From: an uncultured Mycoplasmatota bacterium
Lineage (GTDB): Bacteria; Bacillota_I; Bacilli_A; RF39; UBA660
DNA length: 38,848 nt
NCBI GenBank assembly: GCA_946498975.1
Contig: CAMMQC010000013.1
Coordinates: 1 to 38,848, forward strand
Direction of reading: 5' to 3'
The translations under genes were made by a program, and so were the position numbers. Numbering within the stretch: position 1 is the first letter of the stretch; each line of letters opens with the position of its first letter. Shown piece after piece: positions 1 to 31,753 of the stretch. Under the pieces are notes generated by a model, which saw nothing but the letters and a program-made list of their open reading frames with translations, did no database searches and had not been told where the DNA came from.

Positions 1-63
1 ATTTATCACATTTTTATAATTTTGTTAACCCCTTTTTAGAGGTTTCCGAACAACTTTAGTGTA

Positions 64-7294: not shown

Positions 7295-8216
7295 TTATTT
7301 AATTAAGAGTAATGCTATAAGTCTTATAAATAAGAAAATAGATGAATTAATTAAAGAAAAAGGCTTTGATTCTTCTAGTGTTACTACTTATGATTTAGAA
7401 GAGGATAGTATTACTTCTTTAATAGAAGATGCTGATACTATCTCTTTTCTAACTCCTAATAAAGTAATAATAGGTAAAAACTTATCTAATAACAATTTAG
7501 ATGAAAAGAACTTAAAAACACTATCTAAATACTTAGATAATCCTAATAGTGATGTTTTATTAATACTTGTAACTACTAATATAGATGCAAGAAAAAAGAT
7601 AGTTAAAGAAGTTATTAATAAGCTTTCTTTAGTTAATATAAGTACTGATACTAAGGAAATAGTTAAAGACATATTAAAAGGCTATGATGTAGAATATAGA
7701 GTTATTAATCTTTTAGAAGAGTATTATAGTGAAGATTTAGAAAGACTAATAAGTGAGACTAAAAAGTTAGCTTTAGCTTTCATTAATAATAAAAAAATTA
7801 CTTATAAAGATGCTTTAGAGTTATTGGTTAAACCTTTAAATAAACAAGATAGTCTTGCTTTTGATTTAGTTCGTGAGATAGCTTTAAAAGATAAGAAGAA
7901 GGCTGTTAATATTTATAATGAACTACTTAGTTATAATATCGAAAGTTATGCTCTTTTTGGACTGTTAGAAAGTCAATATAGGCTTCTATATCAAGTAAAA
8001 GTCTTAAATAAAAAAAATATTTCTTATAATGATATGGCAAGTATTTTAGAAGTACATCCTTTTAGAGTTAAGAAAACATTAGAACTAGTTAGATACTATA
8101 CCTTAAAAGAGATAAGAAAACTACTTAAGAATCTTTCTGATATCGACTTTAAAATAAAAAGTGGTGTCTATGAAAATAATATAATTATAGATTTGTTAAT
8201 ACTAAATATCAAGTAG
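7287..8216 (+). CDS. holA: DNA polymerase III delta subunit
   Basis: The 309-residue protein matches the clamp-loader delta subunit. An N-terminal segment ends in SDVLLILVTTNIDARKK, a typical delta motif. The middle contains YYSEDLERLISETKKLALA and the C-terminal collar contains LAFDLVREIALKDKKKA and LLESQYRLLYQVKVL, both characteristic. It opens the beta clamp and loads it on DNA as part of the clamp-loader complex. It is a little shorter than B. subtilis HolA. Its start overlaps the end of alaS, so the two are probably co-translated. A strong hairpin terminator overlaps its stop codon and closes the alaS operon. Confidence 0.9.
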   Translation: MNNYLIKSNAISLINKKIDELIKEKGFDSSSVTTYDLEEDSITSLIEDADTISFLTPNKVIIGKNLSNNNLDEKNLKTLSKYLDNPNSDVLLILVTTNIDARKKIVKEVINKLSLVNISTDTKEIVKDILKGYDVEYRVINLLEEYYSEDLERLISETKKLALAFINNKKITYKDALELLVKPLNKQDSLAFDLVREIALKDKKKAVNIYNELLSYNIESYALFGLLESQYRLLYQVKVLNKKNISYNDMASILEVHPFRVKKTLELVRYYTLKEIRKLLKNLSDIDFKIKSGVYENNIIIDLLILNIK

Positions 8217-8236
8217 ACGTGTACTTGATATTTTTT
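8204..8236 (+). terminator. Terminator of the alaS-holA operon
   Basis: AAATATCAAGTA (8204-8215) pairs perfectly with TACTTGATATTT (8222-8233), loop GACGTG, followed by more T. The stem includes the holA stop codon, and its right arm contains the -35 box of the next promoter. Confidence 0.85.
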
Positions 8237-8253
8237 CTTTCCTTTGTTATAAT
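8225..8253 (+). promoter_or_regulatory. SigA-type promoter embedded in a terminator
   Basis: TTGATA (8225-8230), 17-base spacer, TATAAT (8248-8253). The -35 lies in the right arm of the holA terminator. It should start transcription near 8260, about 23 bases before the ATG at 8283. Confidence 0.75.
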
Positions 8254-8282
8254 AAGCCTACGTTTTAAAGGAGATGACTATA

Positions 8283-9524
8283 ATGACTAATAAAGACAAT
8301 GAAGAGATGGTTAAAAATAATCTTGTAGCCTCTATGAATAATGCTAGTTCTATAGAAGAATTATTAGATTTAAAATGGCAGTTTACTAAAACTTTCAATA
8401 CAAAATACTACAATATTAAAGCTTCAGCTTTCTATAAAAATGTTGATAGACTTACCTATATCAATGCACTTAGAAATATGAGTAATATTGTTAATGATTT
8501 GATTAATAATAAAAATATTGAAGAAATAAAAGATAAATATAATACTACATTGAAATCTATTAAGAAGATGTTTAATGTCTATAGTAAGAATGGCACTTAT
8601 CAAGATAAAATATTAAAAGTTATAAAAGAAATTAATTCTCTAAATGTAAAAGAAGGAATAAATTATGACCTAGATTTTATCTGTGCTAAAACAGCAGTAC
8701 AATTGTTTATAGATAATGATGTTTATAATGGAAATGATGCTGATAAAAAAACTCATGTTAGTACTGGAGACTATAGCTTTTATCTTAACCTTTTAAAAGG
8801 AAAGAAACATCCTCTTTATTTTGAATATCACAATATTTCTTCTGAACATAAAAGCATGTTATATAAGGTTACATATAGGAAAAAACAAGCTCAAAAAAAG
8901 AAAGATACTCTTATAAGCAGATATACAAATATAGAACTAATTAGTATTTTAAGTAATAGTCATTCCCAAAAATTTATAAATTTTACATCTTATTATAATC
9001 TGAATAATATAGTATTTTCTTCTATATTAAAGATGAATAAAAATCTAATTTATGAAATTGCTAATAATAGAAATAATATATGGTACATATATAATTATTA
9101 TGTTGATTTATATAGACAAGTAGCAGAAGAAGTAATTAGAGATATTAAACTATTAAGTAAAGATAAATTTAAAACACCACTTGACTTATATAAATATTAT
9201 TCTAATAATTATAATCTTTTATATATTGCTAAAATTGCTAAAGAACTTCCTGATTTAAAAAATAATACTTTAATATTAAAATATGTAGATAAATTTTCCA
9301 GTTTATTTGAAGTTATAAATGAAAAAAATCTTAATACTATTAAACTTAGAGGACATTTATTCTGTCTTAGTGAAAATATCTCTTTTACTAATAGGGATTT
9401 AAAAAGTGCTATTAATGATATAGAAGGAAAAGGAATGCCTTTACTAAAAGGAGTACTTTATGGTTCTATTAAAAGACAAATAGATATTAAAAACAGTAAA
9501 GTTAAGAAGAAAACACTATGTTAA
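8283..9524 (+). CDS. Lineage-specific protein with HTH-like modules, shorter relative of the genes at 28176 and 29981
   Basis: This 413-residue cytoplasmic protein has no signal peptide or membrane helix and I recognise no known function. I chose the ATG at 8283, since AAAGGAG (8267-8273) is correctly spaced for it and abuts the ATG at 8274. Its C-terminal third aligns by eye with the two large minus-strand proteins. SAINDIEGKGMPLLKGV here corresponds to EVINFLEEKEIPLYIKV there. The segment KYNTTLKSIKKMFNVY corresponds to KYNINIDTFKEYIRAY there. A Lys-rich YRKKQAQKKKD stretch sits mid-protein. The repeated short helix pairs look like HTH units, so nucleic-acid binding is a guess. It has its own strong promoter, and no terminator hairpin was seen after it. 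Confidence 0.7.
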   Translation: MTNKDNEEMVKNNLVASMNNASSIEELLDLKWQFTKTFNTKYYNIKASAFYKNVDRLTYINALRNMSNIVNDLINNKNIEEIKDKYNTTLKSIKKMFNVYSKNGTYQDKILKVIKEINSLNVKEGINYDLDFICAKTAVQLFIDNDVYNGNDADKKTHVSTGDYSFYLNLLKGKKHPLYFEYHNISSEHKSMLYKVTYRKKQAQKKKDTLISRYTNIELISILSNSHSQKFINFTSYYNLNNIVFSSILKMNKNLIYEIANNRNNIWYIYNYYVDLYRQVAEEVIRDIKLLSKDKFKTPLDLYKYYSNNYNLLYIAKIAKELPDLKNNTLILKYVDKFSSLFEVINEKNLNTIKLRGHLFCLSENISFTNRDLKSAINDIEGKGMPLLKGVLYGSIKRQIDIKNSKVKKKTLC

Positions 9525-9569
9525 ATATTAATATATTTGATATAATATATTAAAGAGAGTTGATAAATT

Positions 9570-9857
9570 ATGAATAATAATTATATTAAAACAAGGCAAG
9601 GAACATTTCCTGTTACTGTTTTTGAAAAAGATATGTATGATGTTAATCTTCCTAAATATCTTGAGAATGATATTAAAGCTTTATTAAAAGGTATTAAAGA
9701 AAATAGTACACTACTTGATTGTTTGATGGATGAGGTTTATGGTTCTATTAATGGGGCTTACTGGGATGGACAGATTAGTGAAGAACACTCTAATCATTTA
9801 AGAGAAAAATATTTATTATTAAGTTGCAAGGAAAGTGGTGATAAAGATGTTAGATAA
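9570..9857 (+). CDS. Small protein paired with a HipA-like kinase
   Basis: The 95-residue protein is acidic, cytoplasmic and has no recognisable HTH. Features are TRQGTFPVTVFEKDM near the N-terminus and a central LLDCLMDEVYGSINGAYWDGQIS segment. The ATG has AAAGAGAG about 10 bases upstream. An extended -10 (TGATATAAT, 9538-9546) would start transcription at about 9553. Its 3' end overlaps the kinase gene start region, so the two genes are almost certainly one unit. It may be the cognate partner or antitoxin of the kinase, which is inference. It does not look like HipB, which is an HTH protein. Confidence 0.75.
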   Translation: MNNNYIKTRQGTFPVTVFEKDMYDVNLPKYLENDIKALLKGIKENSTLLDCLMDEVYGSINGAYWDGQISEEHSNHLREKYLLLSCKESGDKDVR

Positions 9858-10749
9858 TTTCAATAACTATGAAATAAATAGATTTAAATACTATGATGGT
9901 AGAAATGGGAATAAGATATGTCTTTTAGATGAACACGGAACTAAATATATGCTAAAAACTCCTCCAGTAAAGAATAAAAATACCAAAAATAAGTATTATA
10001 CTAATGGATGTATTTCAGAACATATAGGATGTTTAATATTTAAATGTTTAGGTTTTAATACACAAGATACTAAGCTTGGTATTTATACAGTTGATGGTAA
10101 AGATAAATTATGTGTATTATGTAAAGATTTTGAAACAGATAATAAGAAATTATTTAAGTTTGCTGAGATAAAAAATGGTATTATTTCATCAAGTGAAAAC
10201 GGATTTGGTGTAGAATTAACTAGTGTTTTAGAAGCAATAGAAGAACAAGAAAATATTAATCCTTCTATCTTAAAGTCATTTTATTGGGATATGTTTATTA
10301 CTGATGCTTTTTTAGGTAATTTTGATCGCCATAATGGTAATTGGGGATTGTTATTAGATGATGTAAACAAAACTAGTGAAATAGCACCTATATATGATTG
10401 TGGTAGTTGTTTATATCCTGCACTTAGTGATGAAGAAATGAAGAAAATATTAAATGATCCTAAGGAGATAGAGGCAAGAATATATGTTTTTCCTAATTCT
10501 ATTTTGAAGATTAATGATGAGAAGATTAATTATTTTAATTATATAAGTTCGCTTGAAAATAAAGATTGTAACGAAGCATTAAAAAGAATAGGAAGAAGAA
10601 TAGATTTAAATATGATTAATAAAATTATTGATGAAGTGGAAGGCATATCTGATATAAGAAAAGAATTTTATAAGACTATGTTAAGATTACGAAAAGAAAA
10701 GATTATAGATTATTCACTTAATTTATTATACGAAAAAGAAGGAGATTAG
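9847..10749 (+). CDS. HipA/CtkA-like serine/threonine kinase
   Basis: The 300-residue protein carries the HipA-type kinase signature: catalytic loop NFDRHNGNWG with Asp160 and Asn165, and a metal-binding IAPIYDCGS with Asp184 in place of DFG. An FWD-like segment (SFYWDMFITDAFLGN) precedes the loop, as in HipA and CtkA proteins. It lacks the N-terminal subdomain of full-length HipA (about 440 residues), so it is a minimal kinase core like CtkA. I prefer ATG 9847, with GGTGAT (9837-9842) as ribosome site, over the GTG codons at 9835 and 9838. It overlaps the 95-residue gene and ends convergently with rarA across a bidirectional terminator. Targets are unknown. HipA relatives phosphorylate tRNA synthetases or host proteins. 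Confidence 0.8.
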   Translation: MLDNFNNYEINRFKYYDGRNGNKICLLDEHGTKYMLKTPPVKNKNTKNKYYTNGCISEHIGCLIFKCLGFNTQDTKLGIYTVDGKDKLCVLCKDFETDNKKLFKFAEIKNGIISSSENGFGVELTSVLEAIEEQENINPSILKSFYWDMFITDAFLGNFDRHNGNWGLLLDDVNKTSEIAPIYDCGSCLYPALSDEEMKKILNDPKEIEARIYVFPNSILKINDEKINYFNYISSLENKDCNEALKRIGRRIDLNMINKIIDEVEGISDIRKEFYKTMLRLRKEKIIDYSLNLLYEKEGD

Positions 10750-11963: not shown

Positions 11964-12048
11964 ATGTATCACTTCCATAATTATTTTATCAAAAAATACT
12001 GTTTTTTTAAAGATATTGATGTTATACTTTATTTATGGAGGGTTTCGT

Positions 12049-13017
12049 ATGAAAGAAAAGTTAGAAAAATACTATAAAGAATATAAAATAATCGATGCTT
12101 TTATAAGCCAAGAACTAAATAATAAAGAGGTTATATATAATAAATTAATTAAGACCAAAGCTGGTAAACTATACTTGAACTTAAATGATGAACAAAGAAA
12201 AGATTTTAGAGATATTTATAGTGATAGCGATATTACAAGATACTATAATACCGAAACTAATATTGAAAAATATACTAGGGATAAAACTATTTTGTTTTTG
12301 GATGTTGCAGGTAGTGATTGTTTTCCTTTAAATAAAGGAAATTTTTTAAATCTTTATATAAGAGATGGTGTTGATACTTATAATGCTTTAACTAATGAAT
12401 CTACTAAAGATTTAGATATTAATGGCGGTATTAAAAAATTCATACAAGAAATTATAGGCTATATATATGGCTTTTCTGATGAATTGTCTATTGATGATAT
12501 ACCATTAATTAAAGTGATTTATGATAAATTAAATAATAATAAAGACAAAGATTACTCTACAACAGTTTCTGTTACATTTGTACAAGATGTTATCTTAGAT
12601 ATAGTTAAGAGAATTCATACTATAGATAAAAAACATATTACTTATAAAGAAAATAGACGTAATGCTATTGCAGATTTAAAAGAGAAAATTAAGGAAAATG
12701 AGACAGAAATCAAAAACAGTGATAGTGGTTTTAAATATATACTTTTATATGCTATTGAAACTGCTAAATATGAAGTATCTTTATTAGAGGGAAATAGAGT
12801 AACTACTATTTTAAAAGAGATAGAAGAGAGTAATCTTAGTGAATCAGAAAAAGATTACTTTAAAGATGCTCTAGTTGAAGCATATTATAATTTAACAAAT
12901 ATTGAGTTTAGAAAACAAAGCGAATATTTTGATAATGACAATGATATTTGTTATGCAACTTTTGAGACGGCAAATCCTGAAATAAATAAAAGATTAATCA
13001 AAATGAGGCAAGGGTAG
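12049..13017 (+). CDS. Unknown protein, first of a tandem paralogue pair
   Basis: This 322-residue, Lys/Glu/Asp-rich cytoplasmic protein belongs to no family I recognise. Start ATG 12049 has GGAGGG at 12037-12042. An upstream reading-frame extension into the rarA antisense strand is not real. An extended -10 (TGTTATACT, 12020-12028) lies upstream. It is clearly related to the next gene. Both contain DDIPLIKV(I/L)Y near the middle and end with a (F/Y)ET(A/G)N-x-EINKR(L/M)(I/L)KM block. Between these, ILLYAIETAKYEVSLLEGN here matches LLFSIRCAFYEVELLSGN there. It is probably all-helical. Function unknown. Confidence 0.75.
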   Translation: MKEKLEKYYKEYKIIDAFISQELNNKEVIYNKLIKTKAGKLYLNLNDEQRKDFRDIYSDSDITRYYNTETNIEKYTRDKTILFLDVAGSDCFPLNKGNFLNLYIRDGVDTYNALTNESTKDLDINGGIKKFIQEIIGYIYGFSDELSIDDIPLIKVIYDKLNNNKDKDYSTTVSVTFVQDVILDIVKRIHTIDKKHITYKENRRNAIADLKEKIKENETEIKNSDSGFKYILLYAIETAKYEVSLLEGNRVTTILKEIEESNLSESEKDYFKDALVEAYYNLTNIEFRKQSEYFDNDNDICYATFETANPEINKRLIKMRQG

Positions 13018-13029
13018 TAGGAGTAAGTT

Positions 13030-14025
13030 ATGCAGTACGATAAGAAGGAATTTAAAATTTATTATAATAATTATATAGATATAAAAAATAGAATAGAAGA
13101 AACTAAGAATAAAATAAATGAACTTTTGCAAGATGACAAATTAAAAGAAACATTAGAGTTTTATGATGATTTAGATAAGGAAAAACAAGTTAAGTTTAAT
13201 AAAATTAATTGTAATAATGCCTTTGTTAGATATAAATTATATCAAAAACAGATTGAAGAGTTAGAAAAAAGTCTTAATAATTTATATTATGATTTTATGG
13301 AAAGTAAGGCTTTTCCTTTTTCTAAAGATGATTTTCATTTCTTTGTAAAGAAAGATACATATTTAGTTGATGCAATTAATGGTGAAGATAGCAGTAAGTT
13401 AAGCAAAGAAGAAAATATATTTTTAAGTGATAGTATAATTAAAGCATATAATTATAATCCTAATGATTATAGTGAAGATGATATACCTTTAATAAAAGTA
13501 TTATATTTAAGAAATAAAGATAATCATAAAGGTGCATTAGATAAAAAAACACTAAATAAATTAATAGCAGAGGATATTGATGATGAAGCTGATGTTGTTA
13601 AAGACCATGATAAAAATATATTTAGTAATTATGAACTACAATGCAATCATGCTCCTCTTTGGAAGATTAAACTCTGGAGGGAAAAATTATATAATCAACA
13701 AAAAAGAGTATTAAATAGTGATAGTAAAAATAAAGAATTATTACTATTTTCCATTAGATGCGCTTTTTATGAGGTGGAATTATTAAGTGGAAATAATATT
13801 AATAATATTTATAATAAACTAAGTATGATGGATGTTAGAAACAATCACGAAAGAATAAAAAAAGAAAAAGAAATAGATGCTCTAATCACCGCTTATTATC
13901 ATTTAATTGATGATAATTTTAGATGTAATAGTGGATATTATACTGATAATAATTATATGTTTGCAAACTATGAGACAGGAAATAAAGAAATTAATAAAAG
14001 AATGTTAAAGATGATGAAAAGATAG
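13030..14025 (+). CDS. Unknown protein, second of a tandem paralogue pair
   Basis: The 331-residue protein is a diverged duplicate of the upstream gene. It shares DDIPLIKVLY, YEVELLSGN and the C-terminal YETGNKEINKRMLKMM block. The N-terminal 90 residues (IKNRIEETKNKINELL, QKQIEELEKSLNNLY) have heptad character and may form a coiled coil. ATG 13030 has AGGAG at 13019-13023. It lies 12 bases downstream of the first paralogue and 11 bases upstream of mutS, so all three are probably co-transcribed. No catalytic motif or membrane helix is visible. Confidence 0.75.
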   Translation: MQYDKKEFKIYYNNYIDIKNRIEETKNKINELLQDDKLKETLEFYDDLDKEKQVKFNKINCNNAFVRYKLYQKQIEELEKSLNNLYYDFMESKAFPFSKDDFHFFVKKDTYLVDAINGEDSSKLSKEENIFLSDSIIKAYNYNPNDYSEDDIPLIKVLYLRNKDNHKGALDKKTLNKLIAEDIDDEADVVKDHDKNIFSNYELQCNHAPLWKIKLWREKLYNQQKRVLNSDSKNKELLLFSIRCAFYEVELLSGNNINNIYNKLSMMDVRNNHERIKKEKEIDALITAYYHLIDDNFRCNSGYYTDNNYMFANYETGNKEINKRMLKMMKR

Positions 14026-16609: not shown

Positions 16610-17470
16610 ATGAGATACGACTTTTTTAGTATATTAGAAAAAATAATAGGAAAATTAGATGATAGAAAAGATGTTATTGATATCATAAAACATGAATTAG
16701 GTGAAAACCTAGAATATTTAGTAACATCATTTGATCTTAAAAAAAAGGTTATTACATTTAATGGTAATATTCGCTTAACACCTATCCTACGTGGCGATTT
16801 TTCTATAGGAATAAGTATTAAAAGAGAGGAAAAGGTAGGTACTGAGACATTTAAATTAACTAAGAATATAGTATTTGGTGGTTTTAAGGGACCTGGCGTA
16901 ATTGTATCAACTTTAGAGGAAGTAAATAATTCCAAATATAATATATATTTTGCTAATACCAAAAGAATAGCTAGAAATAGTAATGAAGAATACTTTATAG
17001 CAGATAATGATTTAGGATTATGGATCTATGATAAAAATGTCGTTTCTGATAGAAGATATGAAACGCTATTTACTGCTAAAACCGCTTGCGAAGTTTATAA
17101 TTTTTACTCAATGTATTACTCTACAACGGAAAAATTAAAAGAGCAATATATTTTACCTGATTATTTTAGAATAAGACATAATATAATCTATGAAGAAGAT
17201 GATAAATTAATAGATATTATACAAGGTAATAATATTTTTAATAATGATGATATAGTAGAAAATGTTATTAGAAATAAACATGAAAAAAATATAGAAACCG
17301 GTAAAGATGCATTTAATCAAAGTATCTATGAGGGGTTTGAAAGTGATGATATTTCAAGTTTTATTCCAATTAAAACTAAATTTAAACCAACAAGCAAAGA
17401 TATCTTTTCTTATAAAGATGATATTACAAAATCTAAAACAAAAACAAAAATAAAGAAAGATGTAAACTAA
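16610..17470 (+). CDS. Unknown protein, first of three tandem relatives after mutS
   Basis: The 286-residue protein is cytoplasmic and of unknown function. The ATG lies two bases after the mutS stop, with GAGGAG at 16595-16600, so it is part of the mutS operon. It shares with the next gene an N-terminal MR(Y/F)D..., a (S/N)FxL-x-x-K block, (I/V)IGIS-(I/L)KR, TF/FTLxKNI, (G/T)(L/I)WIYD and a (Y/C)ILPDY motif. The C-terminus is Lys-rich (KTKTKIKKDVN) and looks disordered. No catalytic residues are apparent. A role connected with MutS is not implied by sequence. Confidence 0.75.
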   Translation: MRYDFFSILEKIIGKLDDRKDVIDIIKHELGENLEYLVTSFDLKKKVITFNGNIRLTPILRGDFSIGISIKREEKVGTETFKLTKNIVFGGFKGPGVIVSTLEEVNNSKYNIYFANTKRIARNSNEEYFIADNDLGLWIYDKNVVSDRRYETLFTAKTACEVYNFYSMYYSTTEKLKEQYILPDYFRIRHNIIYEEDDKLIDIIQGNNIFNNDDIVENVIRNKHEKNIETGKDAFNQSIYEGFESDDISSFIPIKTKFKPTSKDIFSYKDDITKSKTKTKIKKDVN

Positions 17471-17472
17471 TT

Positions 17473-18315
17473 ATGAGATTTGATTATTTACTAGCTTTAC
17501 GTAAAATTTATTCTGACTTTAATAATAGAAATGATGTATTTGATATACTAGTTAATGAATTAGGTGACTTAGAGAGTGCTATTGCATCATTTAATCTTGA
17601 TACTAAAGAAATTGTTCTTAATAAAGATGAGACAGATGAATGCTATAAAATAATGCCTATAAAAAATAATGATAAAGTAATTGGAATATCACTTAAAAGA
17701 GTAAAGAAAGAATTTAATGGTGAACAATTTACTCTTGTGAAAAATATTATTCCTCAAAATGATCAGGAAAAAGGAATTACCATTTCTTCATTAGAAAAAG
17801 TTATAACTAAAGATTATACTGTTTTCTTTGTTAGTTCTAAAAACGTAGTCAATACTAAATTTTTATGTAAAACTAACGATGAAAAAACAGGAATATGGAT
17901 TTATGATAATATGGTTATTAATGAAAATGAAAAGTTATTTCAAGTTACTAGTATAGATTTCTATAAGAATTTTAAAGAAATAGAAGATAACATAAAAGAA
18001 CAAAAATGTATATTGCCAGATTATGTTAGTAAATTAGAAATTGATTACTCTAAAGTAATAGAGGATACTACGGCAGAAATAATATTTATTGATAATAATT
18101 ATAGGCTTAATAAATCTAAAATTAAATGTTCAACAGCTCCTACTTATATACCATTTTCTTGTGATGAAGTTGTTTTTGATAAATATAAACAAATTTTTAG
18201 ATTAATAGGAGAGAAGGTGCCTGTTTTACCTATAGATACATCTTTTATTCCTATTGATAAAACTACTGGTAACTATTTAATTAGAAATGTTAAAATTAAA
18301 AAGATAGGTGATTAA
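17473..18315 (+). CDS. Unknown protein, second of three tandem relatives after mutS
   Basis: The 280-residue protein aligns along most of its length with the gene at 16610: NDVFDILVNELGDL, VIGISLKRVKKEF, LVKNI, GIWIYDNMVI and KCILPDYV have counterparts there. The two genes are two bases apart. The C-terminal quarter (PVLPIDTSFIPIDKTTGNY) is different from its paralogue. The last codons contain AGGTGAT, which serves as ribosome site for the next gene. No known domain recognised. Confidence 0.75.
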   Translation: MRFDYLLALRKIYSDFNNRNDVFDILVNELGDLESAIASFNLDTKEIVLNKDETDECYKIMPIKNNDKVIGISLKRVKKEFNGEQFTLVKNIIPQNDQEKGITISSLEKVITKDYTVFFVSSKNVVNTKFLCKTNDEKTGIWIYDNMVINENEKLFQVTSIDFYKNFKEIEDNIKEQKCILPDYVSKLEIDYSKVIEDTTAEIIFIDNNYRLNKSKIKCSTAPTYIPFSCDEVVFDKYKQIFRLIGEKVPVLPIDTSFIPIDKTTGNYLIRNVKIKKIGD

Positions 18316-18316
18316 A

Positions 18317-19066
18317 ATGAAATATGATTTAGTACAATTAATAAAAGATAGAATGCCTAACTTGGAAGGAAATGAAGTTGTTTGCAAGTTATTGGATAAT
18401 TTCCTTCAGGATAGCTATTCTTCAAAACCATTCATATTGGATGATGATAGAATTAAACTTGAAGATGGCACTGATATGATTATTTATAATGATATGAATA
18501 TTGATATTGCAAGAACTAATGAAGAAATAGGTGTAGCAGAGGATATTAGATTTAACATTATAGATGATAATAGTTATGACATATTTTATTCAAACTATGT
18601 TGTTAATGATAATAGACCTTTAGTTAAAAACTTTAACTTATCATTTTTTAATAATAAGTTAAGTAGTGCAATTATTAGTGAATGGGATTTTTCTAAGGAA
18701 ATGGGAATACTTCTTCATATTATTGATAATATACTTGCTACTATAAAACCAAATATAGATTACTATAAAGAAGTTAAACAATTAATAGATAAATGGTCTG
18801 ATGAGAATATAATTGCACATTATAAAATTTTAAGTGTAGATGATAGAAAAATAACTACTGATGAGGATGATGTACTTTTAAAAGAACCACTTGATAAAGA
18901 GATTGTTGAGGTGTTGGATGGATTTTTTGACTTTTCTAAGGAAGAATATAGTAAGTCTAACCAAGCTATGTATGAAAGCCTATTAACGGTAGAAAATATT
19001 AATGCTCCTAAAGAAAGGCAATATATCTTACTTAATAATAGAAAAATAAAAAGGGATGATAACTAA
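18317..19066 (+). CDS. Unknown protein, third member of the post-mutS gene group
   Basis: The 249-residue acidic protein starts MKYDLVQLIKDRM, similar to the starts of the two preceding genes; the rest is strongly diverged and any relationship is tentative. The ATG at 18317 follows AGGTGAT (18306-18312), which lies at the end of the previous gene. It lies one base after the previous stop (TAAAATG) and ends overlapping the next start (TAATG). No signal peptide, membrane segment or catalytic motif is visible. Confidence 0.7.
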   Translation: MKYDLVQLIKDRMPNLEGNEVVCKLLDNFLQDSYSSKPFILDDDRIKLEDGTDMIIYNDMNIDIARTNEEIGVAEDIRFNIIDDNSYDIFYSNYVVNDNRPLVKNFNLSFFNNKLSSAIISEWDFSKEMGILLHIIDNILATIKPNIDYYKEVKQLIDKWSDENIIAHYKILSVDDRKITTDEDDVLLKEPLDKEIVEVLDGFFDFSKEEYSKSNQAMYESLLTVENINAPKERQYILLNNRKIKRDDN

Positions 19067-23321: not shown

Positions 23322-23349
23322 AAGAGTGTTAGTATTAACTAGCACTCTT
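23322..23349. terminator. Hairpin between the flavodoxin-like gene and spoIVB
   Basis: AAGAGTGTTAG (23322-23332) pairs with CTAGCACTCTT (23339-23349), loop TATTAA, with the spoIVB stop in the loop. TTT follows on the minus strand, and T7 precedes it on the plus strand. It probably ends spoIVB transcription. Confidence 0.65.
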
Positions 23350-24342
23350 ATCTCCTTCTTCTAACATAGTTGTTATAAAAATACCATACCCTTTCTTAGC
23401 ATCACTTACAATAACATGAGTAACCGCTCCAACTATCTTATTATTTTGGATAATAGGAGAACCACTCATACCTTGGATGACACCTCCAGTTTCATTTAAA
23501 AGTTCTTCATCTGTTATTTCAAAAAGAATATTTTTAATATCAGTATCTTTATTAACATTTAAAATATTTATCTTATATTCTTTTACTTCATTACCATTTA
23601 TAACAGTCCTAATTATCGCTTCACCTTTCTTAACATCATCTTTGGTTCCTACTTCTAAAGTTTCAGTATTTAAGAGTTCACTTGTATATTCACCGAATAT
23701 TCCAGACTCTTCATTAGAATTAATCTTACCATAAGTTACAGACTCATCATAAGTTGCATTTTTCTCACCTGGTGAACCATTCTCGCTTCTAGTATTATCA
23801 GTTACAGTTGCTTTAAAGATTTTTCCATCTTTTATCTCAAATTTTTCACCAGTTGTTCTCTCTGTAATTTCATGACCTAAAGCTCCAAAGATAGTTGTTT
23901 TAGGATCGATATAAGTTAGTGTACCAATACCTGTTATTTCATCCTTTACATAAAGACCTGTTTTACAAACATTACTACTATCACAAACCATATCTAAAGT
24001 TAAATTAGAAGACTTATTATCTCTAATAATAGTTACATCTAACTGATTATCATTTGCTGCTTCTTCATTAACTGCGTTTACCATTTCATCAATATTACTT
24101 ACTTTGGTATCGTTTATTTCTGTAATAGTATCACCAATTTCAAAACCAGCATCTTTTCCAATATATCTACTTTCTACTTCATAGAAGCCAACTACTAAAA
24201 CACCTTCAGAATTAACTTCTATACCAATGGTTTCTCCACCTGGGATAATATATTTGGAATAAGCATAGATGTTTATGGGCATAATAAAGAGTATAAGAAG
24301 AGGAAAAATTGTTTGTAGCTTTAATTTTTTTAAAAAATGCAT
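23335..24342 (-). CDS. spoIVB: SpoIVB serine peptidase (PDZ plus S55 domain)
   Basis: SpoIVB is secreted by the forespore and triggers SpoIVFB-dependent pro-sigmaK processing in the mother cell. The 335-residue protein has an N-terminal hydrophobic signal/anchor (about 11-28), a PDZ domain (about 45-115; GFEIGDTITEIND) and an S55 peptidase domain with GALGHE (catalytic His157) and IQGMSGSPI (catalytic Ser293). ATG 24342 is chosen because AAGGAGTGAT (24347-24356) fits it. A CATAATA hexamer-like -10 (24368-24374, minus) would suit sigma-G, but I see no matching -35. It is about 90 residues shorter than B. subtilis SpoIVB. spo0A, its usual neighbour, is absent here. Confidence 0.93.
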   Translation of the reverse strand: MHFLKKLKLQTIFPLLILFIMPINIYAYSKYIIPGGETIGIEVNSEGVLVVGFYEVESRYIGKDAGFEIGDTITEINDTKVSNIDEMVNAVNEEAANDNQLDVTIIRDNKSSNLTLDMVCDSSNVCKTGLYVKDEITGIGTLTYIDPKTTIFGALGHEITERTTGEKFEIKDGKIFKATVTDNTRSENGSPGEKNATYDESVTYGKINSNEESGIFGEYTSELLNTETLEVGTKDDVKKGEAIIRTVINGNEVKEYKINILNVNKDTDIKNILFEITDEELLNETGGVIQGMSGSPIIQNNKIVGAVTHVIVSDAKKGYGIFITTMLEEGDKSAS

Positions 24343-24406
24343 TTTAATCACTCCTTAGCTACATTACTATTATGGAGCGTTTTAAGAAAAAAAGACGTGT
24401 TAAATC

Positions 24407-24460: not shown

Positions 24461-24763
24461 ATGAAAGTATGGAAGACTGCTAAATTTTTTAAAAAAGATA
24501 AGAATATAGAGTTAATTACTAGAAGTTATATTAATTATATATATAAATATGGTCCAATTAATGATATTATTAGAAAATATAATATTAATCCAAGTGATGT
24601 TTATAAATTGAATCAATATACTGCTAATAGAATTGCAGGATTACTTATATTATATCTTGCTAAAGATAAGAAAAGGCTTAATGATATAGTGTTAAAGTAT
24701 GATACTAGTGATTTGTTAGTTAGTGATATTATACCAGAAATAGAAGGATATATTGAAAGGTAA
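24461..24763 (+). CDS. Small unknown protein
   Basis: The 100-residue basic helical protein reads MKVWKTAKFFKKDKNIE at the start and has a central IIRKYNINPSDVYKLNQY segment that looks like a helix-turn-helix and recalls the KYNI units of the large paralogues at 8283, 28176 and 29981. That relation is tentative. AAGGGGG lies upstream of the ATG. It is the first gene of a three-gene run to 25913, driven by the promoter at 24407-24435. Confidence 0.7.
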   Translation: MKVWKTAKFFKKDKNIELITRSYINYIYKYGPINDIIRKYNINPSDVYKLNQYTANRIAGLLILYLAKDKKRLNDIVLKYDTSDLLVSDIIPEIEGYIER

Positions 24764-26030: not shown

Positions 26031-26132
26031 CTGTTTCACCTCATTTTTAATTATATATAAAAAGTCTATTTTTGTAAAATGAATTTAGGTAAATAATAGT
26101 TATTTTTGAATAATATTTACTAGGTGATTATA

Positions 26133-26762
26133 ATGGATTTAAAACTTAAAAAAGTAAAGAATAAAGTAACTAACAAATTAGCAGAACAAAAGAAAATATA
26201 TATCTTTTTAATAATAGTAATGACTATAGGTTTAATACTTGGTATTATATATGCTGTTGTATTAAATAAGAGTGATCATAATTTAGTAACTACAAGTCTA
26301 GATAGTTTCTTTACTAGTATAAAAAATAATGATATAGATTATAAGAGTGCTTTAATTAATAGTTTAATTGGCAATATTTCTTTTGTAACATTTATCTTTT
26401 TATTAGGTATATCTATTATAGGAATACCTTTAATTATCTTTAGTTTAGCATCATCTGCTTTTATCTTTGGTTTTTCTTTATCATCTATCATTTATACATA
26501 TCATTTTAATGGTATTTTAAAGGCCATTACTTATCTTTTTCCTCATCAATTGATTACTTTATTAATAAGCTTGTTTTTAGGCTTCTATGCCCTTTATTTT
26601 GGTATTAAATTATTTAAATATTTATTTAGAGGTATAGATATTAATTTAAGAAGTTCTATGAAGAGATATATTCAAGTATATGTAACAGTTTTATTAATAT
26701 TTATAGGTTGTAGTTTTATAGAAGTATTCTTATCTCCGGCTTTAATTAAATTAGTTGTTTAA
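26133..26762 (+). CDS. spoIIM: Stage II sporulation protein M
   Basis: SpoIIM works with SpoIID and SpoIIP in the membrane complex that drives septal peptidoglycan remodelling and engulfment. The 209-residue protein has five hydrophobic segments, starting at about residues 25-45, and the SpoIIM pattern FTSIKNNDIDYKSALINSLIGN, FLLGISIIGIPLIIF and FPHQLITLLISLFLGF (separate parts). I place the start at ATG 26133, four bases after AGGTGAT (26122-26128). Its stop overlaps the stop of the convergent zincin gene by four bases, and no hairpin is evident there. Confidence 0.88.
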   Translation: MDLKLKKVKNKVTNKLAEQKKIYIFLIIVMTIGLILGIIYAVVLNKSDHNLVTTSLDSFFTSIKNNDIDYKSALINSLIGNISFVTFIFLLGISIIGIPLIIFSLASSAFIFGFSLSSIIYTYHFNGILKAITYLFPHQLITLLISLFLGFYALYFGIKLFKYLFRGIDINLRSSMKRYIQVYVTVLLIFIGCSFIEVFLSPALIKLVV

Positions 26763-28165
26763 TTAAGAGTTAAAGTCTTATCTTTTTCTTCATTAAAATA
26801 GTAATAGGGAAGATAAACATTATAGTCTTCAACTTTTAAAACATTAGCACAAGTACATAATCTTACAAATTTATCTATATCCGTAAAAGAATCATTACCA
26901 AGACTAATAAGAGTATCAGCGATGTCATTATAAGTTTCATAATCATTAAGTCCTCTATATAAAGTATTTAGGAGGCTATCTATCTCTTTTTCTGCCTCAA
27001 TATCATTAGCCCAAGTATTAACATTTAAATCTATTAAAGCATTTTTAATTATATTTATATTATCATTACTCATTGCTTCTAAAAATTTATCTTTACCAAT
27101 AAGTTCTATAGTAGCTTTAGTAACAGCTGTGTTCTTAGTGTAAGGATTATTATTATTGTCTTCTTTAGTAAAATATTCACTTTCTATTATTTCTGTAAAA
27201 CCTTCTTCGTAAGCGAAAGGAATAGTTATAGTATCAACAACAGCATGAGTAACTTCGTGAGCGATTAATTCTTCAGTGGGATTAGTATAATAGGTAATAT
27301 CATCATAATCATAATCTGCTAAGATAACAGTTCCATTATTATTATCTTTTCCAGAAGAGAAGGGATTATAGTTACGGTCGAAGTCAAGGGAAACTAAATT
27401 AATATAAGTTTTTTCTTTATCTAAATAGGGGTTATCATTAAAGAAATCTAAAAAGTTATACATTACTTTTTTTTCTTTTTTATTAGCATAAGGATTATCA
27501 CTGATAGCATTAAGTAATAAATAATTATCAATTTCTTCTTTAGTATCAACACTATCAAGTTTAAACTTATTATCATTAGTTACTTTAATCATTTCAGTTT
27601 CAAGGTCATGTAAAATATTATTTAGTTCTTCTTTGTTAAGACTATCTTTTCCATCAAAGTAATCTAAAACTTTTTCAGTGGTTGAAGCATTAAATAAAAT
27701 GTTACAAGAGGTAGTTATAGAATTAAAACAGTTTAAAAGAATATATATAGTAAGTATTTTAAGAAAATTAAAGTAAGGCTTAGATTGCGACTTTTCTATT
27801 TTTAACTCTTTAATATTAGGATTTTCTTTTGTTAGTTCATTTTCTAATAAGTCGTTGACATTAATAGAAATTCCCTCAATATTCAATCTGTTTACTTTTC
27901 CTTTTAATTTCCTTTTACTTAGTTTTAACTTTTTCTTATTATTGTATCTATTAACACAAATTTCTCCAATATATTTAATAGTAAGAACTGGTATAGTAAA
28001 GTTAGCGATAAAAAGATTCATCTTTAATATTCTTAAAATTATATTTGCTATGAAATATAATAGTACGTTGTTACCAAGTTTTATAATATAAGAATCTTTT
28101 TTATCTTTATATATGTTAATATCTAAAATATCATTTATAATTTCATCATCAAGTACTTTCTTCAT
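26759..28165 (-). CDS. Membrane-anchored zinc metalloprotease-like protein
   Basis: The 468-residue protein has an HEVTH zinc site (His303, Glu304, His307) followed by YEEGFTE (Glu320-Glu325), where a Glu of the EGF segment is the likely third ligand, as in gluzincins. Hydrophobic segments near residues 30-70 and 135-155 suggest membrane anchoring, with the catalytic part after them. No family could be named. It is the third gene of a minus-strand operon after two large HTH-like paralogues, 10 bases from the upstream stop. AAAGGA at the end of the upstream gene is the only ribosome site, 13 bases away. Substrate and cell side are unknown. Confidence 0.75.
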   Translation of the reverse strand: MKKVLDDEIINDILDINIYKDKKDSYIIKLGNNVLLYFIANIILRILKMNLFIANFTIPVLTIKYIGEICVNRYNNKKKLKLSKRKLKGKVNRLNIEGISINVNDLLENELTKENPNIKELKIEKSQSKPYFNFLKILTIYILLNCFNSITTSCNILFNASTTEKVLDYFDGKDSLNKEELNNILHDLETEMIKVTNDNKFKLDSVDTKEEIDNYLLLNAISDNPYANKKEKKVMYNFLDFFNDNPYLDKEKTYINLVSLDFDRNYNPFSSGKDNNNGTVILADYDYDDITYYTNPTEELIAHEVTHAVVDTITIPFAYEEGFTEIIESEYFTKEDNNNNPYTKNTAVTKATIELIGKDKFLEAMSNDNINIIKNALIDLNVNTWANDIEAEKEIDSLLNTLYRGLNDYETYNDIADTLISLGNDSFTDIDKFVRLCTCANVLKVEDYNVYLPYYYFNEEKDKTLTLN

Positions 28166-28175
28166 ATGTATTATT

Positions 28176-29975
28176 TTATCCTTTCTTAATTAGTTTTTTC
28201 TCATCTTCTAATATTAAATTACCATTTATATGTCTTCTTAAAGCTTGTTTATATACTTTTATATAAAGAGGTATTTCTTTTTCTTCTAAAAAGTTAATAA
28301 CTTCTTCTTTTTCTTCTCTTGTTACTTCATAAGGCTCATTATCTATCATTAATATAGTAGTACCATTAAGCTCTTGATCAACAGTTATTTTATCCATTTT
28401 ATTATCGGCTATTACAGATGATATTTTATTGTTAACCATAAAATTTTTAAAAGCAGTTAAAGAAGATTTACTACAATCATTACTATTTATGTAAATATCA
28501 AAAAACTCACTATAATTTAATTTAGTATTAAGAAAATAATCTAATAATTCAAACGGTCTTATATTACAATCTTTATCTATAACTCCACATTCTATTTGCT
28601 TAACAATAGATATTATATTTTCAGTCGATTTGTTAATTTCTTTATTTTTCTTATTATGTTTTTCTATTTTTTCTTTTATTTGTAAATATAATGGATTATT
28701 AACTTCTTCAAGAATTTTTATGCATTTATAATATGTTCTCTCCGTGATACCTACTAGTTGGCAAAATTGTTTAATGCTTCGAATACTATTATCAAGAAAT
28801 AGAGTAAAATCAATATTCTTTAATATTTCTTTAGTATTTTCTACATCACTTTGTCTTCTCTTTATCATTTTTTTATAGTTAATTCTTTTTCTTGCCTCAT
28901 CTATTTTAGTAGTTATTTGTTCTTTTAAATTTTCTTTTTCTTCTTCTGTTAGAGTTTGTCTATAATTATTAAGAAACTTTCTAATATACTCAGGATGTAT
29001 CAAATTATTATTATTTTCTACTATGTTATCTATTATATTAAGATCTTCTTCTTTTTCTAGTTTACTCATAACGATAGAGTAGTGAATATATTTATATTTT
29101 TCGCTAAGACTTTCAATAGCTTTACTAACTTTAACATATAATTTATTATAAGTATCAGTATCAAAGTACTTATTTTCATATAAATAATCAAGTACATCTA
29201 AAGATATGTGTTTAGAAAATACAATATTTTCAAAGTTTTCATTATCATTAGAGTCTTTGTTTTTTTCAAGTACTTTAGCTAATACCTCTTTTGAACCAGT
29301 AATATTAATCTTTTTAAGTGCTAAAACAATTGATAAAATTTTATTATCTATATGTTTTAAGTCTGTGTTTAGATATAGCAAGCTGTATGCTCTAATATAT
29401 TCTTTAAATGTATCAATATTAATATTATATTTTTCTAGGAATAAATCAATTCTCTTATAATAATTATCTTTATCAGAATAATTATCGATGGTAAAGGTTG
29501 TGTAATATGCTTCTTTTAATATATCTATATTAAAATCCTGATATTTTTCTGATATATCTTTTTCTTTTCGATATGTTTTTAGTCTTTTAATTAAAGGAAC
29601 CTCATTTTGAAAGAGTTTAGATATAAAGTAATACTTATCGAAAAAAGTTTTATACCCTTTATAATAATCAATATTTTCTTCTTTTTTTATTTTTTCAAGG
29701 TTAGTTTTTCCATATAAAGAATACATGTAAAAAGAAAGCTGTCCTATTTTATAAGCAATATTATTATTTATAGTATAAACATCATGATCAATTTCAAAAA
29801 CTAAAGAACTTTTTGTAAAATAATAATTAATTAATGGCTTAAAATTATTTAAAAACTGTTTTTTACTATTATTATCTTTAACAGATAAAAAATATTCTAT
29901 TGCTTTAGTAAAATCTTTACTACTTATATCTTCTTTATCATTATTGATTATTTTATCGAAACTATCTTTATTCAT
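28176..29975 (-). CDS. Large HTH-like lineage-specific protein, paralogue B
   Basis: The 599-residue cytoplasmic protein is a paralogue of the gene at 29981. Shared segments are AIEYFLSVKDN/ALEYFITIKDN, KYKYIHYS or KYIHYSIA, ELLDYFLNTKLNYSEF/EILDYFLSTKLDFNEF, QELNGTTI/QELDGRTI, and the last about 50 residues (IPLYIKVYKQALRRHINGN, then ILEDEKKLIKKG). The segment SIKQFCQLVGITERTYYKCI looks like an HTH, and KYNINIDTFKEYIRAY may be a second. I infer nucleic-acid binding only weakly. The 3' end AAAGGATAA doubles as the ribosome site of the zincin gene. No catalytic motif recognised. Confidence 0.72.
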   Translation of the reverse strand: MNKDSFDKIINNDKEDISSKDFTKAIEYFLSVKDNNSKKQFLNNFKPLINYYFTKSSLVFEIDHDVYTINNNIAYKIGQLSFYMYSLYGKTNLEKIKKEENIDYYKGYKTFFDKYYFISKLFQNEVPLIKRLKTYRKEKDISEKYQDFNIDILKEAYYTTFTIDNYSDKDNYYKRIDLFLEKYNINIDTFKEYIRAYSLLYLNTDLKHIDNKILSIVLALKKINITGSKEVLAKVLEKNKDSNDNENFENIVFSKHISLDVLDYLYENKYFDTDTYNKLYVKVSKAIESLSEKYKYIHYSIVMSKLEKEEDLNIIDNIVENNNNLIHPEYIRKFLNNYRQTLTEEEKENLKEQITTKIDEARKRINYKKMIKRRQSDVENTKEILKNIDFTLFLDNSIRSIKQFCQLVGITERTYYKCIKILEEVNNPLYLQIKEKIEKHNKKNKEINKSTENIISIVKQIECGVIDKDCNIRPFELLDYFLNTKLNYSEFFDIYINSNDCSKSSLTAFKNFMVNNKISSVIADNKMDKITVDQELNGTTILMIDNEPYEVTREEKEEVINFLEEKEIPLYIKVYKQALRRHINGNLILEDEKKLIKKG

Positions 29976-29980
29976 AAGTA

Positions 29981-31753
29981 TTATCCTTTCTTAATTAGTT
30001 TTTTATCATCTTCTAATATTAAATTACCATTTATATGTCTTTTTAAAGCTTGTTTATATACTTTTGTATAAAGAGGTATATCTTTAACTCCTAGATAGTT
30101 AAGAACTGTTTGTTTTTCCTCTTTACTTACTTCATATGGTTTATCATCTACCATAAATATAGTTCTTCCATCAAGTTCTTGATTGATATTTAGTTTATTA
30201 GTTAGTTTATTTTTAGCAAAGAAGATCTTAATTGCTTTTAGTGATTCTATATCTATATTTCTGTTTTTATTATATAAGTCTATAAATTCATTAAAGTCTA
30301 ATTTAGTACTAAGAAAATAATCAAGTATTTCAAAATTTCTTCTACTACCATCTTCTAGTTCTATTCCATTAATAATGTTATCGGCAATAGAATTTACTTT
30401 GTTAATTAATACTGCATATCTTTGGCCTTGTAGATTTCTTATTTTTCCTTTAATTTTTAAGTATAGTTCATTATCTCTAACTTCTAACATTGAAAATAAA
30501 GTATTAAAGTCACTTTCTCTGATATCCATTAGTTTACAAAAATCATCCTTACTCTTAATATCAGAGCTTAAAAATATATTGAAATCAATACTATTATATA
30601 AATTTTCTTTTCTTCTTTCTATTCCTAATGCTCTATCAGCAGCATTGTCTTTTTTTATATCTTCTTTTGCTATTTCAGTTTTTTTGAGTAATTCTTCTTC
30701 TAATTCTTGTTTCTTTTTATCAGATAAAGTAACTCTATAAATTGTAATAAATCTCTCCACATTATCTTTTGTTAAATATGTTATATTGTTTTTTACTATA
30801 ATTTTAATTTCTTCTAAATCATTACTACTTTCTATTTTAGTTAAAGCGATAGAATAATGAATATATTTATGTTCTTTTTCTAATGATTTTATAGCAGTGT
30901 TTATTTTCTTAATTATATTATCTAAATTATTAGAGTATTTTCTATTATAAAATCTATATTTTTCAATAAAACTTTTTATTACATATGGAGAAAGATGATT
31001 AGTAAATACAATTTCTTTTATATAGTTAATATCATTACTATTTATGATATTGTTTAAAACTTCTTCAAATTTAAAGAAATCATTAGAGAAATGACTAGTG
31101 GCACTTTCAACAAAGTTTATCATCTTATCTATCTTTTTTAAGGGAATATTTAAATATAGCATTCCATATGTTTCAACATAATCTTTTAATGTACCTGGAT
31201 AAATATTATTTTTATCCATAAATTTTCTTTTTCTTTCTTCATAATCTTCTTTATCTAAAAAATTATTAAGACTAAAATATAAGTAATAAGCTTCCTCTAA
31301 TACATCTTTATTAATATCACTATATTTAGATTCTAATTCAATTGATTTACTATACATATCTAAATCTAACAGTAATTCTTTATCATCAAATAAATCTATA
31401 TTGACATTATTACGGTATCTATCTAAAGAGGCTAAATAAAGAGAGTTATCATTTATATTTTGTATATCTTTAGTAAATATAGGAAAAATTTTATTACCAT
31501 ATAAAAAATTAGCCCAATATAGAAGCCTATCTATTTTAAAAACTGTTTTGTCATATGATATAGAAATAGGATACTCATCTACCATAGGTAATAATTTATT
31601 AAGAAAAGATATAATAACTTTTTTACATTTTAATAGAAATTCTTCTTTTAAATCATTATCTTTGATAGTTATAAAATATTCTAAAGCTACTTTTAAATCA
31701 TCTATAGAGATATTTTCTTCTAAATTAATTATCTTTTTAAAGCTTTTATTCAT
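29981..31753 (-). CDS. Large HTH-like lineage-specific protein, paralogue A
   Basis: The 590-residue protein is the first gene of the minus-strand operon. It aligns with paralogue B along its length; the closing IPLYTKVYKQALKRHINGN and ILEDDKKLIKKG are nearly identical there, and weaker homology extends to the 413-residue protein at 8283. The HTH-like positions read DIKSKDDFCKLMDIRESDF and NIYPGTLKDYVETYGMLY. AAGGGGTGG precedes the ATG. The operon is transcribed from a promoter that overlaps that of mnmA. Function unknown; the repeated KKG-stop end supplies the next gene's Shine-Dalgarno. Confidence 0.72.
   Translation of the reverse strand: MNKSFKKIINLEENISIDDLKVALEYFITIKDNDLKEEFLLKCKKVIISFLNKLLPMVDEYPISISYDKTVFKIDRLLYWANFLYGNKIFPIFTKDIQNINDNSLYLASLDRYRNNVNIDLFDDKELLLDLDMYSKSIELESKYSDINKDVLEEAYYLYFSLNNFLDKEDYEERKRKFMDKNNIYPGTLKDYVETYGMLYLNIPLKKIDKMINFVESATSHFSNDFFKFEEVLNNIINSNDINYIKEIVFTNHLSPYVIKSFIEKYRFYNRKYSNNLDNIIKKINTAIKSLEKEHKYIHYSIALTKIESSNDLEEIKIIVKNNITYLTKDNVERFITIYRVTLSDKKKQELEEELLKKTEIAKEDIKKDNAADRALGIERRKENLYNSIDFNIFLSSDIKSKDDFCKLMDIRESDFNTLFSMLEVRDNELYLKIKGKIRNLQGQRYAVLINKVNSIADNIINGIELEDGSRRNFEILDYFLSTKLDFNEFIDLYNKNRNIDIESLKAIKIFFAKNKLTNKLNINQELDGRTIFMVDDKPYEVSKEEKQTVLNYLGVKDIPLYTKVYKQALKRHINGNLILEDDKKLIKKG

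Follow-up and report, generated by a model that had tools for sequence, protein, structure and literature searches.

Exchange of alleles at a fixed chromosomal slot is familiar from restriction specificity genes or surface-antigen loci. The locus described here is like such slots in its conserved flanks, divergent alleles and apparent between-species transfer, and the proteins encoded in it call to mind two further described systems. The first comprises the helix-turn-helix (HTH) units of small bacterial regulators (HTH_28, HTH_41, Mga HTH, SpoIIID, PapB), to which a central unit of these proteins is alike in length and pattern, with different members matching them weakly. The second comprises response regulators represented by PDB entries 5hev, 4wsz and 4wt0, which we take to be of the LuxR type and which a profile of one of the proteins, A, matches weakly over residues 70-126 (E 0.06-0.38, ranked behind a ribosomal protein at 0.023).

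The stretch of DNA analysed, hereafter the window (38,848 nucleotides), is an entire contig of a 1.50 Mb draft genome with a G+C content of 26%, which appears to belong to the genus Candidatus Onthousia, within the Bacilli, and probably to a gut bacterium. Three of its genes are at issue, and are listed with the C-terminal motifs of the latter two.

8283..9524, plus strand: gene A, 413 residues, predicted to be almost wholly helical; it comprises four HTH-like units of three helices each, followed by a C-terminal module.
28176..29975, minus strand: gene B, 599 residues, a paralogue of C.
29981..31753, minus strand: gene C, 590 residues, strand-mate of B across a five-base gap.
28254..28274, minus strand: IPLYIKV motif of B.
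30059..30079, minus strand: IPLYTKV motif of C.

The open reading frame (ORF) of gene A is real, and its start is placed at the ATG at 8283 rather than that at 8274 because the AAAGGAG at 8267-8273, nine bases 5' of the former and directly abutting the latter, has a spacing that fits only the former; residue numbers in the structural model of A run from the ATG at 8274. The calculated isoelectric points are 9.5 for A, 7.9 for B and 6.4 for C, the last two being near neutral, not basic.

B and C are plain paralogues, with 37% identity and a BLASTP E value of about 1e-75. Pairwise, A has no similarity to either (best BLAST E 0.29), and profiles were therefore built from disjoint strict match sets, 33 matches of A and 57 of B/C with no member in common, and compared with each other. 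The two align with 96.4% probability (P 1.1e-9) over 218 columns, pairing A 105-403 with C 347-574, as against a maximum of 1.1% in 24 control comparisons, in which 12 unrelated families from those same AT-rich genomes and loci were set against A and against C. Moreover, the A-branch profile retrieves B from the genome in six frames (E 6.5e-5). On these profile comparisons, the original prediction that the genes at 8283, 28176 and 29981 are related holds, and A, B and C can be taken as homologous members of a single family. The same prediction had noted a C-terminal IPL(Y/L)xxV shared by all three, and the pattern [IM]PL[YL]xxV, composed after the sequences had been inspected, does occur only there among 35 ORFs of the window searched for it. 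The repeated K-x-NI units that it had also invoked do not exceed shuffled expectation, with counts of zero in A (shuffle mean 0.66, P 1.0), two in B (0.96, P 0.25) and three in C (0.88, P 0.06); the longer K.NI...(F/L)KxY form occurs once in B (shuffle mean 0.02), once in C (0.01) and not in A. Nor does the protein at 24461, offered as a possible fourth member, belong, since its profile, made from that protein and three homologues, reaches probabilities of only 2.0% and 0.2% against A and C, respectively. The proposed grouping was thus correct in three genes and mistaken in the fourth, and it drew on weak motif evidence.

The 24461-24763 gene (plus strand) encodes a basic 100-residue protein between spoIVB and spoIIM, 70-92% identical at three loci in the genus, with no family match above cut-off. 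Its neighbours, a SpoIVB peptidase (23335-24351; PF05580, 1.1e-71) and SpoIIM (26124-26762; PF01944, 9.7e-18), suggest that some genes for sporulation survive in this reduced genome.

That the family has no recognised function is borne out by Pfam, PHROGs, NCBIfam and PADLOC, none of which assigns A, B or C to a family: every match in Pfam and NCBIfam lies below the cut-off, and scans with aligned members yield scattered weak matches only. A count of copies, as proposed with the prediction, finds three in the genome with profiles of both branches. Counting the window's own genome, single-sequence searches find A in 28 of 35 genomes of the genus and five of 145 of the taxonomic family, and C in 21 of 35 and 11 of 145. 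The B/C profile matches at least 65 of 385 genomes of the order (33 of 117 genera), at least nine of 395 of the class and at least four of 392 of the phylum, again with the own genome counted, and the A profile at least two of the 395 class genomes; these order, class and phylum counts are lower bounds because at most three or four candidates were scored per genome. All B/C profile matches fall within the window's own taxonomic family, to which A, B and C thus appear confined as far as these profiles reach. The description of the genes as lineage-specific and repeated within 24 kb therefore stands in regard to the single taxonomic family, but the family extends beyond this genome, this genus and a 24 kb stretch. 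Within the genus there are tandem copies of A (genomes G177 and G165) and, at loci L086, L087 and L091, a single copy accompanied by a fused double A protein (806-807 residues). A copy of C at L055 (1271-3040, genome G145) is broken by five stop codons, which indicates that family members also decay.

The distribution bears on one alternative, that the genes are relics of a mobile element or prophage, such as recombination or terminase-like HTH proteins, now chromosomal. It could draw on the apparent transfer of alleles and on weak PHROG matches of B at its HTH-like unit, to a DNA invertase (phrog_125, residues 334-457, E 0.0013) and a terminase small subunit (0.07). Against this, the 50,697 phage and 72,556 plasmid records searched contain no relative of A or C, the viral contigs searched contain none of either branch, and the neighbours that can be named are mostly housekeeping genes, which leaves such an origin barely plausible.

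An AlphaFold model of A from 25 sequences (pLDDT 88, pTM 0.52) is almost entirely helix, with four successive short-helix triplets linked by long helices and followed by a C-terminal module. These parts and their equivalents in C are as follows.

8478..8588, plus strand: unit 1 of A, model residues 69-105, with the weak match to LuxR-type response regulators.
8658..8801, plus strand: unit 2 of A, 129-176, which the profiles align with the HTH-like unit of C (30434-30592).
8928..9035, plus strand: unit 3 of A, 219-254, in a block absent from C in the profile alignment.
9186..9293, plus strand: unit 4 of A, 305-340, with a conserved PLDLYxYY whose counterpart in B and C is RxFExLDYF.
9321..9482, plus strand: C-terminal module of A, about 350-403 (in the model, to 415), predicted as a helix, a beta hairpin and two helices, with MPLLKGV at 9435-9455.
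30434..30592, minus strand: HTH-like unit of C, residues 388-440.
29984..30391, minus strand: C-terminal module of C, residues 455-590, modelled alone (pLDDT 84, pTM 0.77).

Relative to C, the block specific to A comprises a long helix besides unit 3. How units pair between the branches is less certain than homology itself, since the A-branch fragments of L041, L045 and L091 aligned at unit 3 of A, whereas the profile comparison and its alignment pair unit 2 with the central unit. In the shared regions, where unrelated folds had been named as the sign that would speak against kinship, the C-terminal modules of A and C are predicted with identical element order; the model of C (136 residues) is not independent of A, because its alignment consists of B and 21 A-branch C-termini. 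Conservation is among the highest in the last helix, around PLxKGVLYGAIKRQ in A and around IPLYxKVYKQALKRYI in B/C, and in A this helix and the tail are basic as well as highly conserved. As to the recurring HTH-like units of the original prediction, they are suggested by the predicted helices, but profile self-alignment yields internal repeats of marginal significance at most (lowest P 0.036 for A and 0.09 for C; 0.004 and 0.002 in two distant members), so that the word "repeat" rests mainly on those helices. Distant members are assembled from the same pieces; five of 19 (L132, L134, L135, L142 and L143) are short, with 155-240 residues, and four of these (155-170 residues) retain unit 4 and the C-terminal module alone, which implies that any reading of DNA by many units would not be universal. 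In units 1 and 3 the third helix is less conserved than the remainder of the unit, but in units 2 and 4 it is not, a mixed result that does not decide whether specificity changes.

Signs of an HTH nature come from weak matches. With the central unit (~55 residues) of 30 members, 34 Pfam families were matched weakly, and eight of the 25 listed are HTH-type, the best being PapB at 2.7e-5; six of these eight calls follow Pfam's own description, and the PapB and SpoIIID matches are presumed by us to be HTH-type. The same fragments reversed matched 16 Pfam families, none HTH-type, with an unrelated family the best at 3.4e-4. Since the central unit also matched CHIPS at 1.4e-4, and reversed fragments reached 3.4e-4, single HTH matches are not significant and only the excess counts. 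The fragment set, 29 of 40 non-redundant central-unit fragments together with that of C (dropped were L016, L017, L020, L041, L045, L052, L060, L091, L115, L116 and L118), is drawn from the B/C branch and distant members and has no close A-branch fragment, and the excess is consequently not a test of A. HTH-type families also make up four of 11 weakly matched families for the B/C alignment, and whole proteins of the A branch (23 members) match HTH_Mga in two cases, HTH_28 in two and HTH_11 in one. On the opposite side, just two of 17 weakly matched families are HTH-type for 22 mostly distant members. By these measures, the HTH signs for A itself appear weaker than for the B/C branch. No HTH family in Pfam matches A, B or C above its curated cut-off, and PDB sequence searches with profiles of A, B/C, distant members and a single unit return nothing significant. 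With Foldseek, neither A nor the C-terminal module had a PDB match at an E value of 0.001 or below, and A had no clear match in BFVD; nor was any match clear with VIA against the PDB (best Z 7.8 for A, on helices 1-61, and 4.5 for the C-terminal module). A classical winged helix would be expected to match, yet a missing match proves nothing, and the lack of structure matches is no evidence of a new fold. The basic final helix and tail of A and its isoelectric point of 9.5 accord with DNA binding, whereas the near neutrality of B and C counts against it. The suggestion that the genes encode nucleic-acid-binding proteins has thus gained indirect support through the HTH excess, less so for A, and DNA binding by the family is likely on this sequence evidence.

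The same results must be weighed against a second reading, in which the proteins would be helical scaffolds or adaptors with a solenoid-like protein-binding surface, and their HTH resemblance would reflect a common helix-turn-helix hairpin. By name, many of the Foldseek and VIA matches of A are helical-repeat or bundle proteins, none of them significant; the near neutrality of B and C would suit a scaffold, as would the pTM of whole A, which corresponds to loosely placed units. However, the Foldseek matches listed have E values no lower than 0.43 and query TM scores no higher than 0.20, and the prominence of HTH families among the weak Pfam matches of the central unit, absent in the reversed control, speaks for DNA binding. 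We consider the scaffold rather unlikely, although the strongest of the rivals.

In the genus, the family occupies two slots, A between holA and rarA and B/C between spoIIM and mnmA. At loci whose flanks reach these genes, A adjoins holA or rarA, or at least one variable gene intervenes. In the window, gene A follows holA directly and has a promoter-like pair of its own.

8204..8236, plus strand: AT-rich inverted repeat at the end of holA, its arms at 8204-8215 and 8222-8233 and accompanied by a run of T; judged by eye, it resembles a terminator.
8225..8253, plus strand: promoter-like pair TTGATA-17-TATAAT (11 of 12 matches), its -10 preceded by TG and its -35 inside the 3' arm of the inverted repeat.

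The inverted repeat has two G-C pairs, under the rule of three of the terminator scan, which leaves it unlisted. The pair TTGNNN-16..18-TATAAT occurs in the gap at 15 of 17 distinct holA-adjacent family loci, the remaining two having near variants, compared with 18 of 134 gaps between adjacent same-strand genes of the window and L076-L092, a control set that contains some A gaps. In this survey of promoter gaps, as in those of distant loci and upstream neighbours, family membership was assigned with profiles merged over four rounds (small set), which are looser than the strict sets. Between A and the small gene at 9570-9857 lies a near-palindrome, TTAATATATTTGATATAATATATTAA (within 9525-9569), possibly an operator or weak terminator.

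Variable genes share these slots, namely a HipA-like gene, relatives of the 37164 gene and HExxH membrane proteins, none of them constant. The HipA-like gene (9835-10749, plus strand), preceded by the small gene at 9570-9857, is a PADLOC candidate, PDC-M03A (7.5e-32), and adjoins A only at some loci and in some species. Ten bases after B and in the same direction, 26759-28165 (minus strand) encodes a membrane protein with HEVTH and YEEGF, gluzincin-like by eye, which matches nothing in the PDB and no Pfam family above cut-off. Directly upstream of A at L089 (8359-9936) and L088 (8279-9970) lies an HExxH protein, membrane-bound or secreted, that is unrelated to it, and a remnant upstream of A at L077 (9530-9976) is a short version lacking the HExxH middle. 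Among readable genus genomes (G148, whose contig ends there, excluded), the spoIIM-mnmA slot holds a family member with the protease in nine, a family member only in nine and the protease only in three, and the pairing is accordingly not obligate. On this tally, and with the HipA-like gene beside A at some loci only, we rejected the HEVTH protease and the HipA-like protein as constant partners. In other genera, family members lie by smc and holA (L133), by ileS (L140) and one gene away from mfd (L139). Elsewhere in the window, two unnamed paralogue sets (12040-13017 with 13030-14025, about 30% identical; 16610 with 17473, 35%), spanning 12040-14025 and 16610-19066, lie in the intervals separating rarA, mutS and nusB, and for the most part their conservation is lower than that of these neighbours.

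The varied content of the slots invites a third reading, that they are defence or competition hotspots whose cargo is under frequency-dependent selection, through phage defence or rival recognition, with A, B and C as the recognition or control part. The HipA-like candidate in the A slot, the different genes there in other species, allele exchange, and the tandem and fused copies of A would all accord with it. Yet A, B and C match no PADLOC-DB 2.0.0 model at E 0.01, the 19 distant loci have no constant partner recognised among the minority of neighbours that could be named, and dN/dS is well under 1 in diverged pairs (see below). A hotspot of this kind seems distinctly unlikely.

Exchange itself was gauged from synonymous divergence in the 66 pairs formed by 12 loci of A whose two flanks lie on its own contig. 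Between the window and L080, dS is 0.11 for holA, 0.76 for A and 0.26 for rarA; for L077 and L084 it is 0.12, 1.02 and 0.25, and for L080 and L081 the difference runs in the opposite direction, with 0.17, 0.01 and 0.35. C shows the same against its L050 copy, with a dS of 0.03 where mnmA has 0.21. Many other pairs of A have a synonymous divergence consistent with their flanks. Alleles of A far more or far less diverged than both flanks in some pairs suggest that the slot has been refilled by recombination. Mixed bins do not explain this, because gene and flanks share one contig, and chimeric assembly at both edges, possible in draft genomes, would have to recur; we infer that allele replacement by recombination is the simplest account of these sequences. 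In diverged pairs, dN/dS is 0.29-0.38 for A and 0.30-0.44 for C, above the 0.04-0.13 of holA, rarA and mnmA yet low, which implies a constraint that is real but relaxed. Positive selection was considered and set aside, with dN/dS about 0.3 in diverged pairs and not above 1; one fused pair has 0.79 at a dS of 0.02, too few changes to count.

We give about even chances to the reading in which A, B and C form a new chromosomal family of tandem-HTH proteins that bind DNA sequence-specifically through multiple units, control transcription locally and exist as slot-exchanged alleles. Each protein would consist of several tri-helical HTH-like units strung along long helices and ending in the conserved module with its basic last helix; most likely, several units would engage DNA at once and with sequence specificity. 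Such binding might then, by conjecture, give local transcription control. The A slot would supply a promoter to whichever allele occupies it, and homologous recombination through the conserved flanks would replace one allele by another. A bolder extension, which we hold to be very unlikely, is a hypervariable DNA-recognition system in which tandem HTH arrays, expressed from the slot promoter and swapped between species via the flanking core genes, change the DNA recognised much as a specificity subunit does, perhaps against mobile DNA. Whichever applies, the genes represent a protein family without a name in the copies of Pfam, NCBIfam, PHROGs and PADLOC searched, spanning a single taxonomic family of the Bacilli. 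They also offer a clear example of a rapidly evolving gene at a fixed position, with the promoter-like pair and the neighbours conserved and the coding sequence replaced. If the units do read DNA, the alleles would be a natural set for asking how tandem HTH arrays alter specificity.

Set beside the described systems, the locus differs from restriction specificity or surface-antigen slots in that no modification or restriction enzyme is seen adjoining it and no further copies turned up in the genome. From LuxR-type response regulators A is separated by the lack of any receiver or GerE match (Pfam, E 1), and the B/C profile does not match these PDB entries; an identity of A as a LuxR/GerE response regulator was therefore rejected, no receiver domain being matched and the resemblance confined to a weak HTH part. 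Compared with the small bacterial regulators, whose HTH units match over part of the length, the family has several units per chain and a C-terminal module of its own. Our best reading is that the kind of family is ordinary, tandem-HTH and probably DNA-binding, and that its turnover is unusual, the unexpected part being a fixed, promoter-bearing slot with swapped coding sequence.
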